This document shows, one piece after another, positions 2,621 to 9,644 of a stretch of DNA of 37,993 nucleotides. Numbering within the stretch: the first letter of the stretch is position 1; every line of letters begins with the position of its first letter. The position numbers and the translations under genes were made by a program. The stretch lies in NCBI GenBank assembly GCA_024398105.1, contig JAKSJP010000025.1, forward strand, positions 1-37,993, in the 5' to 3' direction. The notes under the pieces were generated by a model, which was not told the DNA's origin, did not search any database, and saw only the letters and a program-made list of their open reading frames with translations. Source of the stretch: Bacteroidales bacterium (lineage in GTDB: Bacteria > Bacteroidota > Bacteroidia > Bacteroidales > UBA932).

Positions 2621-3256
2621 ATGCTCCTCAATATAGTAAAAGCATTCCTGATCGGTATATGTGCGTCGGCTCCGCTGGGTCCGACCGCTATCTATATCCT
2701 CCAGGTCTCGCTGAGCAAGGGACATAAGCCTGGCTTCCTGACAGGTCTGGGAGCAACAACCATGGACACCATCTATGCGGTCATGGCGATCTTCGCGCTT
2801 GCCTTCGCCGAATCGTTCCTCGACAGCCATAAGGTGCTGATCATGATCCTCGGCGGCCTTGTAGTGGCTCTCGTAGGCGCTTCAGTGGTGTTCTCCAATC
2901 CTTTCCGCAAGCTTAAGCCTGGTGACAACCCTACGTATTCCATCAGGGACTACGCCCAGGCGGTTGCGTTGGCTCTTTCGAATCCTACAGCGATCGTGGT
3001 GATGTTCACCCTCTTCGCTTTCTTTGACGTGGATATCAGTGGCCAGGGCTTCAATGTGGCTCCGCTGATCTGTGCAGTCGCTGCCGGATCTGCCAGCTAC
3101 TGGTTCTGCTTCACAGGTTTTTTCGGATATATCAGACATAATTTCAAGCTGGCTACGCTGGTATGGGTGAACCGTATCGCGGGTGTGGTGGTGATGATAG
3201 TCGGTATCGCATTGCTGGCTGAAGGCTGCATCAAGCAGCTCATGAACAATTTATAA
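2621..3256 (+). CDS. LysE/RhtB-family amino-acid exporter-like membrane protein
   Basis: This 211-residue polytopic membrane protein resembles the LysE/RhtB/YggA superfamily, which exports amino acids or related small molecules by proton motive force. The N-terminus shows the family hallmark, a first helix ending in a short Pro/Gly turn (FLIGICASAPLGPTAIYIL, residues about 9-27), followed by the GFLTGLGATTMDTIYA stretch. Five or six hydrophobic segments are visible, at about 5-25, 38-60, 68-90, 107-130, 142-165 and 180-203. The ATG is preceded by GAAAGAAGA and a -7 box. PASTA and rluD genes follow 6 bases downstream in the same direction. The substrate cannot be read from sequence. Confidence 0.75.
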   Translation: MLLNIVKAFLIGICASAPLGPTAIYILQVSLSKGHKPGFLTGLGATTMDTIYAVMAIFALAFAESFLDSHKVLIMILGGLVVALVGASVVFSNPFRKLKPGDNPTYSIRDYAQAVALALSNPTAIVVMFTLFAFFDVDISGQGFNVAPLICAVAAGSASYWFCFTGFFGYIRHNFKLATLVWVNRIAGVVVMIVGIALLAEGCIKQLMNNL

Positions 3257-3262
3257 CAGATC

Positions 3263-4057
3263 ATGGAAGAGAAGAATAACAGATCAGAAGTTTCTTTCGT
3301 TGAGTGGGCAATCAAGAACGCAATCGCTATTGCAGCTCTTGTACTTGTCGTTGTGATCGGTGCAAGCATACTCCTCAAGGTGGGCACACACCACGGAAAG
3401 GTAATCATAGTGCCTGACCTTACCAATATGAAGGTCTCTGAGGCAAAGCATGTGGCTGCCTCTGATGAGCTTAAGATCGAGGTGACTGACTCAGTCTACA
3501 TCAGAAGAATGGGCAGAGGACTCGTGTATTCCCAGAATCCAAAGGCCGGATCGCAGGTGAAGAAGGGAAGGAGAATCCTTCTTACGATCAATTCCGTGAC
3601 CCCGAAGAAGGTGCAGATGCCTAATCTCGTGGGATATTCGATGAGACAGGCCAAGGCAGAGCTTCTCTCAAGAGGCCTCTCCCTCGGCAAGCTTGTCTAT
3701 GTCGACGACATTGCGACCAACAACGTCCTCAAGCAGACATATAAGAACCGTGACATCAAGGCTGGTACCATGGTCGACAGCGGTACCGAGATCGATCTCG
3801 TCGTCGGCCTCAACTCTGAGGACAACCAGACCTATATCCCTAAGCTTACAGGTCTCAAGTATATGAGAGCCGTTGACGTGGCACATGACAGCCAGCTCAA
3901 CGTGCGTAAGCTTGTGTTCGATGAGTCAGTGAAGAACTATGGCGATTCTCTCGACGCAGTCGTATACAAGCAGAATCCTGCGGCTTCTTCCGCACCTACC
4001 CTCATGGGATCTGAGGTTACCCTCTATCTTACAAATGACCCTGCAAAGCTGAACTAG
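3263..4057 (+). CDS. Membrane-anchored PASTA-domain protein (three PASTA repeats)
   Basis: The protein has 264 residues. A short cytosolic N-terminus is followed by one transmembrane helix (about 17-39) and an external region built of three PASTA repeats, roughly 47-113, 114-185 and 190-260. Each repeat opens with a V/IPxLTxM or MPNLVGYS-type motif and shows the conserved Ala in xxAxxxL. PASTA modules bind muropeptides or peptidoglycan in PknB-type kinases and PBP2x. Here there is no kinase or transpeptidase domain, so the role is probably cell-wall binding or scaffolding. This stand-alone form next to rluD recurs in Bacteroidota by my recollection. It sits 6 bases after the LysE-like gene and 5 bases before rluD, so it is in the same operon. 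Confidence 0.85.
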   Translation: MEEKNNRSEVSFVEWAIKNAIAIAALVLVVVIGASILLKVGTHHGKVIIVPDLTNMKVSEAKHVAASDELKIEVTDSVYIRRMGRGLVYSQNPKAGSQVKKGRRILLTINSVTPKKVQMPNLVGYSMRQAKAELLSRGLSLGKLVYVDDIATNNVLKQTYKNRDIKAGTMVDSGTEIDLVVGLNSEDNQTYIPKLTGLKYMRAVDVAHDSQLNVRKLVFDESVKNYGDSLDAVVYKQNPAASSAPTLMGSEVTLYLTNDPAKLN

Positions 4058-5126: not shown

Positions 5127-5158
5127 AAAGGCCCCCTTACAGAGAGAGGGCCTTTTTT
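5127..5158. terminator. Intrinsic terminator between convergent rluD and lytTR genes
   Basis: AAAGGCCC (5127-5134) pairs with GGGCCTTT (5148-5155) and is followed by a T run on the plus strand, so it ends the rluD transcript. On the minus strand the right arm lies in the last codons of the response regulator gene, whose stop is at 5137-5139; the A run gives T residues there too, so it may act both ways. Confidence 0.8.
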
Positions 5159-5871
5159 CTGAGGTATTCGTTGAATGCGTCCTTGTAGGAGTCGGAGACA
5201 GGGATGATCGTCCTGCCTATCAGGATCTCCATTCCTGGCTGTATGGAATCGATCTTGTCCAGGGCTACTATGTAGGAGCGGTGGACCCGCATGAATGCTG
5301 ACGACGGCAGCATGTCCTCTATGCCTTTCATCGTTATATGCGTCACCAGAGGAGTCTTCGAGCTTGCTGTGTAGATGGTGACGTAGTCCTTCATTCCTAC
5401 GACGTAGAGTATGTCTGCGATCATTACTTTCTGCAGGACCTTGTCGGTCTTCACATATATCGAATCGTTGTCTTCTTTCTCGTTGGTGGCCGCAGAAGCC
5501 GCTTCCTTCAGGCTGAACCACTGCTGCGCCTTCTCGACTGCTTCCAGGAACTTCTGGTAGCGTATAGGCTTGAGGAGGTAGTCGAGTGCGTTGACCTCGA
5601 ATCCTTCAAGCGCGTACTGGGCAAAGGCCGTGGTGAAGATTATCCTGGTCTCCTTCGGGATCATCCTTGAAAGGTCAAGTCCGTTGAGATCGGGCATCTG
5701 GATGTCCAGGAACACCAGGTCCGGAGCGGCGTCCCGTATCTTGGAGAGCGCCATCACAGGGTCTGTGAAGGATTCGATCAGCTCTATTCCAGGGGTTCTT
5801 GTGACGAAGGTCTCTATCATCTTGACGGCCAGAGGCTCGTCGTCGACGATCATACATCTGAGATTTCTCAT
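5137..5871 (-). CDS. LytTR-family response regulator (LytR/AlgR type)
   Basis: A DNA-binding response regulator of 244 residues. The receiver domain covers residues 1-120: acidic pair D10/D11, phosphoacceptor D56 in LVFLDIQMP, T80/T81 and K101 in LLKP. A Glu/Asn/Asp-rich linker precedes a LytTR domain (about 137-240), recognisable from KVLQKVMIADILYVVGMKDYV and FMRVHRSYIV. LytTR domains bind pairs of short direct repeats spaced about two helical turns apart. The gene starts 2 bases after the histidine kinase stop, so kinase and regulator form a cognate pair. A direct repeat with 21-bp period at 9567-9598, upstream of the first gene of this operon, is the natural candidate target. The last codons lie in the terminator stem. 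Confidence 0.92.
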   Translation of the reverse strand: MRNLRCMIVDDEPLAVKMIETFVTRTPGIELIESFTDPVMALSKIRDAAPDLVFLDIQMPDLNGLDLSRMIPKETRIIFTTAFAQYALEGFEVNALDYLLKPIRYQKFLEAVEKAQQWFSLKEAASAATNEKEDNDSIYVKTDKVLQKVMIADILYVVGMKDYVTIYTASSKTPLVTHITMKGIEDMLPSSAFMRVHRSYIVALDKIDSIQPGMEILIGRTIIPVSDSYKDAFNEYLRKKALSL

Positions 5872-9490: not shown

Positions 9491-9529
9491 ATCTGTGTTG
9501 TTTTTTTTGTTTCAATTTTGTTTCTGGTG

Positions 9530-9537
9530 CAAAGATG
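9530..9537 (-). promoter_or_regulatory. Possible -7 box for the OMP-kinase-LytTR operon
   Basis: On the minus strand this reads CATCTTTG, one base off TAnnTTTG, 39 bases before the OMP ATG at 9490. A weak -7 box with no obvious TTG partner would suit an activator-dependent promoter. The 21-bp-period repeat lies 29-68 bases upstream of it. Confidence 0.4.
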
Positions 9538-9566
9538 GCCAGAGAAACAACACGGATTTTCTTATT

Positions 9567-9598
9567 TAGACGAATCGCCCGATTTCATAGACGAATCG
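9567..9598 (-). promoter_or_regulatory. Direct repeat with 21-bp period, candidate LytTR operator
   Basis: The 11-mer TAGACGAATCG occurs exactly twice on the plus strand, at 9567-9577 and 9588-9598, with a 10-base gap and a 21-base period. Two direct repeats about two helical turns apart is the usual geometry for LytTR-domain regulators. The pair sits upstream of the operon encoding such a regulator, at about -40 to -75 from the likely transcription start. The repeat sequence itself does not closely match published LytTR consensus sites, so the assignment rests on geometry and context. Confidence 0.55.
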
Positions 9599-9607
9599 GC
9601 GTATTGT

Positions 9608-9644
9608 AAAAAAAAAGAGACAGGCTAGCTGTCTAGCTTGTCTC
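9608..9644 (-). terminator. Strong intrinsic terminator of the RNase G gene
   Basis: On the minus strand GAGACA-A-GCTAG-ACAG-CTAGC-C-TGTCTC forms a nearly perfect 28-base hairpin (9617-9644), followed by a run of nine T. The stem contains the RNase G stop codon at 9625-9627. Confidence 0.88.

Follow-up and report, generated by a model that had tools for sequence, protein, structure and literature searches.

Paired direct repeats in front of an operon for an outer-membrane beta-barrel protein, a LytS-type sensor kinase and a LytTR response regulator are, with a probability of roughly 0.86, the operator through which the operon's own regulator would activate its transcription. The geometry of the repeats, their conservation and their linkage to the regulator all indicate, at the level of sequence comparison, that the regulator very probably controls its own operon through them. 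The position of the site favours activation over repression. The features concerned lie within the window, i.e. the whole stretch of 37,993 nucleotides that was analysed (Table 1). An earlier note on this DNA had claimed the gene order barrel, kinase, LytTR regulator, and profile matches confirmed it (PF14905, PF06580 and PF00072 plus PF04397). Both domains of the regulator score above the curated cut-offs (PF00072 76.4 bits against 30.2, PF04397 67.7 bits against 22.6). With a receiver domain followed by a LytTR DNA-binding domain the protein is a LytTR response regulator by definition, and the motif FMRVHRS is kept in it.

Table 1. Genes of the operon and elements of its promoter region, in window coordinates.
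Feature	Position	Strand	Details
OMP_b-brl_3 outer-membrane beta-barrel protein, 832 aa	6992..9490	-	PF14905 E 3e-72, PF00593 E 1.6e-10
LytS-type sensor histidine kinase, 360 aa	5874..6956	-	PF06580 E 5e-26
LytTR response regulator, 244 aa, proposed repeat binder	5137..5871	-	PF00072 E 2.5e-21, PF04397 E 1.1e-18
Distal half-site TTCGTCTAT	9587..9595	-	overlaps exact repeat 9588-9598; GTC.A invariant in 53/53 loci
Proximal half-site TTCGTCTAA	9566..9574	-	overlaps exact repeat 9567-9577; 21 bp from distal
-7-type promoter box CATCTTTG	9530..9537	-	consensus TAnnTTTG; 5/6 consensus positions

The exact 11-bp repeat with a 21-bp period that the earlier note had reported before the operon was located precisely, with TAGACGAATCG at 9567-9577 and again at 9588-9598 on the plus strand. 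Read on the minus strand, which is that of the operon, it becomes CGATTCGTCTA-N10-CGATTCGTCTA. The exact pair occurs once in the source genome (2.43 Mb, 91.8% complete), while the reversed control pattern is absent. From 100 dinucleotide-shuffled windows, 0.03 exact repeats of at least 11 bases at a period of 20-23 were expected versus two observed. A second exact direct repeat, ATAACAGATCA, stands at 3253 and 3276 (period 23, spanning 3253-3286), at the junction of a gene ending at 3256 and the gene of a PASTA-domain protein starting at 3263. Shuffling only the intergenic region 9491-9624 (134 bases) yielded a repeat of at least 11 bases at period 20-23 in 5 of 5000 cases. Taken by itself the window repeat is suggestive, and conservation is the deciding evidence. 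The repeat might be non-regulatory, either a product of chance or a piece of the RNase E/G terminator; the RNase E/G gene lies upstream and ends at 9625, close to the repeat and on the strand of the operon. However, the repeats lie beyond the hairpin and T-run that follow the RNase gene (judged by eye), they persist in relatives despite differing upstream sequences, and chance rarely produced such a repeat in the shuffles. The conservation in 53 of 53 loci described below refutes this reading, and we regard its probability as negligible.

A search for the barrel protein in 300 genomes of the genus (E 1e-60) gave 116 matches in 106 genomes. Besides the window, 99 of the other 115 matches were fetched first; the 16 left were contig-end fragments and distant paralogues. 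Together with the window and one barrel-less regulator locus (L164), this made 101 loci, namely 53 with a downstream kinase, 35 barrel orthologues without two-component genes, nine distant paralogues, three loci at contig ends (L108, L153, L154) and L164 itself, which was handled separately. The regulator was seen in 51 of the 53 barrel-kinase loci, the other two being cut by contig ends. Pairs were scored as two copies of TTCGTC(G/T)AA 20 to 22 bp apart, with a maximum of 18. The score was at least 15 in 52 of the 53 loci with the system, and 14 in the remaining one (L116). The check set beforehand was whether the operon is conserved while the repeat is not; instead, the pair was found at period 21 in every one of the 53 loci. 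Orthologous barrels without two-component genes scored 10 to 14 (none of 35 reached 15, two reached 14), the nine paralogues 10 or 11, and shuffled sequence about 11. Two of the matches initially left out (G282:C2 and G104:C42) also carry the pair, G282 with a -7 box at 38 bp.

The half-site consensus on the operon strand is TTCGTC(G/T)A(A/T). Its core GTC.A is invariant in both half-sites at all 53 loci, and in the proximal half-site the invariance extends to GTC.AAA. Information content over these loci was 1.50 bits per half-site column, compared with 0.69 in the spacer and 0.07 in the upstream flank. The LytTR operators described in the literature consist of 9-bp direct repeats that are separated by 10-13 bp and lie upstream of the -35 region (PMC6193735, PMC11347149), and a paired direct-repeat operator is also described for the family in PMC4227749. 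The layout found here, 9-bp repeats around a 12-bp spacer in 53 of 53 loci, is that of a LytTR operator, so the geometry that had been proposed stands. Each locus holds two to four half-site copies, the last pair always 21 bp apart. One locus has three copies, and four half-sites in a row were seen in L078, L079, L090, L091, L093 and L098 as well as in the second G104 copy (L374); the promoters with four suggest regulator arrays of more than one dimer. A motif-free test found period 21 best or tied in 42 of the 53 loci with the system and also in 10 of the 35 barrels without it. A subclade of the latter (L113, L115, L117 and L119-L125) shares an AT-rich promoter stretch in which units resembling ATTAAA.AAT/ATATTTG recur about every 21 bp (by eye); these units are not the half-site.

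The position relative to the promoter is equally constrained. In the window the proximal half-site starts 37 bp away from the -7 box; over the genus this distance to a TAnnTTTG-like box is 38 bp in 39 loci and 37 bp in 11, and in the remaining three of the 53 the program picked another -7 match at 25 bp. The suggested placement just upstream of a -7 box is thereby borne out in 50 of 53 loci. All six consensus positions of the box are present in 44 of 53, and no conserved -33 element was found between site and -7 box across the 53 loci. A fixed distance of 37 or 38 bp without a conserved -33 is the layout expected if a repeat-bound protein touches the polymerase at a weak promoter. We propose that the sensor kinase would phosphorylate the LytTR regulator, a dimer of which would occupy the two half-sites; with 21 bp, or two turns, between them, these face the same side of the helix. 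The bound dimer would adjoin the expected -33 place and help RNA polymerase at a promoter with a -7 box and no good -33. Barrel, kinase and regulator would then be produced together, forming a positive feedback loop, and in relatives the same regulator would also control a few exported or surface proteins.

Alternatively, the regulator might bind the repeats and repress its own operon, or act in both directions according to its phosphorylation state. Autorepression is common among regulators in general, and the many complete -7 boxes would fit it. Furthermore, the LytTR protein CoxC represses via repeats that overlap a -35 box (PMC11347149). Here, however, the pair ends upstream of the -33 place and does not overlap the -7 box, there is no conserved -33, and the near-constant distance between site and box suits contact with the polymerase. 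Repression is therefore an unlikely alternative to activation by the operon's own regulator.

If the repeats are the operator of this regulator, they should accompany it and not the barrel. Indeed, in two genomes, G013 (L164) and G131 (L266), kinase and regulator occur without the barrel and the repeats stand directly before the kinase gene, which indicates that the site goes with the regulator. Among regulators at least 53% identical to that of the window (n=57), the repeats were found in all 54 with a reachable operon promoter, i.e. 51 among the 53 barrel loci plus G013, G131 and G282, where the barrel start lies on another contig. The contigs of G247, G064 and G260 end before the promoter, and these regulators are outside the 54. 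Promoter and regulator of G317 are on separate contigs. Two barrel loci with repeats, in G121 and G217, have regulators that are absent from this list. The 24 weaker regulators included 13 paralogous loci and L221, which were scanned for the pair, and L220 and L224, which were scanned near the kinase only. No repeat pair was present within the fetched stretch of the 13 paralogous loci (best score 13), nor in L221. These 13 regulators are 44-50% identical to that of the window, 12 of them have a related kinase, and eight lie behind genes that look macAB-type by eye. LytS-LytTR pairs behind efflux permease-, ATPase- and membrane-fusion-like genes were seen at L215-L217, L221-L223, L225, L271-L277 and L279; macAB-type efflux loci, their genes named by eye, form another frequent setting for this regulator family.

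On the barrel tree the system-bearing barrels form nearly one clade (two changes). The system was therefore gained about once, and its co-occurrence with the site does not amount to 53 independent tests. The co-occurrence is nevertheless strong evidence, in comparative terms, for long conservation and a functional linkage. L138 (G286), a barrel without the system, sits inside the system clade on a long branch, although its placement is unsure. Its repeats are missing, as joint loss of site and system would predict, and no related regulator was detected in G286 at E 1e-10. Altogether, the promoter region of the operon that encodes the regulator contains a putative operator which is conserved along with that regulator, as is expected of an autoregulated operon. 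Barrels without the system carry an alternative element, the imperfect palindrome GTGTA.TA.T...CTAATACAC. Its exact pattern occurs in 5 of 35 of them (L138, L139, L143, L145, L146) and in none of the 53 with the system; near-variants are visible in L135, L137, L142 and L147. Possibly another regulator acts on the same barrel gene through this palindrome. Some barrels have Met-rich tails.

The earlier note had pictured a self-contained loop. This fits the window's genome, where we found one credible site (a weak second match, C34:98874, overlaps a coding sequence at its end), but in relatives a few more targets appear. A degenerate pair pattern gave 77 matches in the 53 operon-bearing genomes versus 15 for the reversed control, whereas it gave 20 versus 24 in 53 genomes that had been selected as lacking a barrel-kinase locus; among these is G013, whose system comes without the barrel. 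Among 20 further sites that were fetched, eight precede the gene of an exported DUF4412 protein beside a yebC-like gene, and some have no clear target. When 30 DUF4412 loci were scanned, 12 had the pair and 18 did not, L245 and L246 among the latter having just one good half-site. The -7 box lies at exactly 38 bp in the 10 closest pair-bearing DUF4412 loci and roughly an additional helical turn away, at 47 bp, in the two others. Targets found singly are Flg_new/GLUG surface proteins and a SnoaL-domain protein, together with an exported protein that resembles DUF4890 but falls below the Pfam cut-off and, as judged by eye, an efflux operon of the TolC type. No DUF4412 homologue was found in the window's genome at E 1, and the open-licence papers searched do not mention DUF4412. 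Since the additional targets are mostly exported or surface proteins, the system is probably an envelope-sensing switch, the envelope signal being a guess from the kinds of target.

The DUF4412 loci bear on a further possibility, namely that a DNA-binding protein other than the operon's regulator recognizes the repeats. Among the genomes of the 10 closest DUF4412 loci, no orthologous regulator was detected in G142 (83% complete) and G015, which has an apparent operon promoter at a contig end (L210); G142 thus keeps the site before DUF4412 without a detected orthologous regulator. Moreover, TTCG-T-CGAA, the most frequent half-site, is almost a palindrome, which would suit a symmetric dimer. Yet 18 of 53 proximal copies have TCTA, which breaks this palindrome, whereas every copy retains GTC.A, and this makes the half-site a directional unit. 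The pair also stays before the kinase in the two barrel-less loci, and not one of the 35 barrel orthologues without two-component genes scores 15 or more. We therefore consider another binder improbable, and less probable than repression, and retain the operon's own regulator as the protein that would bind the pair.

The earlier note had also made a Pro/Met/His-rich loop of the kinase part of the system. We counted P, M and H in 18-residue stretches of 49 relatives (L080, L085 and L134 were not counted). The window kinase reaches 8, compared with 7 in L065 and 6 in L066, its nearest relatives; in the majority of the kinases the count is at most 5. The stretch is richer in three of 49 (L114 and L118 with 11, L136 with 10) and poorer in 46, so that the loop is not a general feature and a general role in metal sensing was dropped. 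The loop might have a lineage-specific role in metal sensing. In L114, L118 and L136 the rich stretch lies at about the same place (e.g. HMHHGRPPGPHMPF); these are not the nearest relatives of the window on the barrel tree.

LytTR autoregulation through direct repeats is already known. Autoactivation of its own operon through such repeats is proven for HdrR of Streptococcus mutans (PMC6193735, PMC11347149), and the known cases include kinase-less LRS-like operons of Bacteroides (PMC6193735). As PMC6193735 describes them, the LRS, i.e. HdrRM and BrsRM of S. mutans and the LRS-like operons of B. thetaiotaomicron and B. ovatus, share with the window operon a LytTR regulator and paired short direct repeats upstream, about two helical turns apart, with positive autoregulation proposed or proven, and the Bacteroides operons also have a TATCTTTG -7 box. 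An LRS, however, consists of a regulator and a membrane inhibitor, and the Bacteroides regulators have membrane segments (PMC6193735), whereas here a histidine kinase (PF06580), a receiver-LytTR protein and an outer-membrane barrel are found; the operon is thus not an LRS. The repeats differ as well, TCCGGTATTCA-11-ACCGGAAATCA in B. thetaiotaomicron (PMC6193735) versus TTCGTC(G/T)A(A/T)-12-TTCGTC(G/T)AA here.

Among response regulators, AgrA of Staphylococcus aureus serves peptide quorum sensing in a bacterium without an outer membrane, and its half-site sequence and promoter type differ from those described here. It is likewise a LytTR response regulator, and its dimer binds two direct repeats that lie upstream of the promoters of its own operon (PMC4227749). 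Within the same genus, the paralogous LytS-LytTR pairs are related proteins, but unlike the window operon none of the 13 has the repeat pair. BtsR and YpdB of E. coli pair a LytS-type kinase with a LytTR regulator, a pairing that the window operon has in common with them. The best NCBIfam match of the window regulator is indeed BtsR, at 139.9 bits against an equivalog cut-off of 246, and it is therefore not filed as BtsR. The classic LytTR half-site consensus is [TA][AC][CA]GTTN[AG][TC]; compared with it by eye, TTCGTCGAA agrees at positions 1, 3, 4, 5 and 8 and departs at 2, 6 and 9, and hence conforms to it only partially. In the open-licence literature, as far as the texts available to us extend, no Bacteroidota LytTR two-component operator was found, the nearest being the Bacteroides LRS-like repeats (PMC6193735), nor was a description of this operon type, the half-site or the 37/38-bp rule. 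The proposed mechanism is thus of a known type, while the half-site appears to be new. Half-site, spacing rule and fixed -7 distance together make regulons readable from sequence, and the operator is a potential handle on what the barrel proteins respond to.

Outside the genus, searching named genomes returned at least 80 regulators, and the following refers to loci among the matches listed. Barrel-kinase-regulator operons numbered 11 among these, nine from Prevotellaceae, one from Bacteroidaceae and one from an unplaced rumen Bacteroidales genome. All 11 have the pair, with scores of 14 to 18 and a period of 21 in three and 22 in eight. The proximal copy lies 37 or 38 bp from the -7 box in 12 of 12 named-genome loci among the matches listed, also where the period is 22. 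One of the nine Prevotellaceae operons, with a variant operator, belongs to Xylanibacter ruminicola D31d, so that a named host is available for tests; its half-site and that of Prevotella sp. UBA2809 is AACGTCGAA, the weakest fit. In L293 a 121-aa exported protein takes the place of the barrel. A protein that looks homologous to it by eye is encoded in a different genome by a solitary gene with a site of its own in front (L370); neither protein falls into a Pfam family above cut-off. A strict period-22 pattern was applied to 14 genomes, of which 10 have the operon or the L293 variant and four do not. It matched exactly once in eight of the 10, seven times at the operon itself, and gave no match in the four genomes without the operon.

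Tentatively, these observations might be extended to a Bacteroidota-wide code, in which TTCGTC(G/T)A(A/T) at 21/22 bp, placed 37/38 bp before a -7 box, marks one LytTR branch that runs an outer-envelope stress response; we consider this rather doubtful. If true, the branch would control the barrel, DUF4412, DUF4890-like and small exported proteins, a GLUG protein and a TolC-type efflux operon, and would be a Bacteroidota counterpart of the proteobacterial envelope-stress systems. Kinase-first operons are found in many Bacteroidota, and these and the barrel operons were tested against shuffles (79 loci among the matches listed; one was too short). Eight of 50 kinase-first loci lay at the shuffle floor of p 0.01 (about 0.5 expected), seven of the eight with period 21; the motif in these loci is suggestive, the other 42 being negative. 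In the same test nine of 11 barrel loci passed p 0.05, and the two misses, L292 and L305, had a misplaced anchor although their sites are present. No motif was shared by 17 distant LytTR operon loci scanned near the kinase. One of these, L227, has a different 10-of-11 repeat of period 21, TTTGACTGA, which could be chance. In Mucilaginibacter, three kinase-regulator operons (L325, L330, L337) have TTCGTCGAA-like pairs with period 21, and apparent inverted copies of the half-site were seen by eye further upstream.
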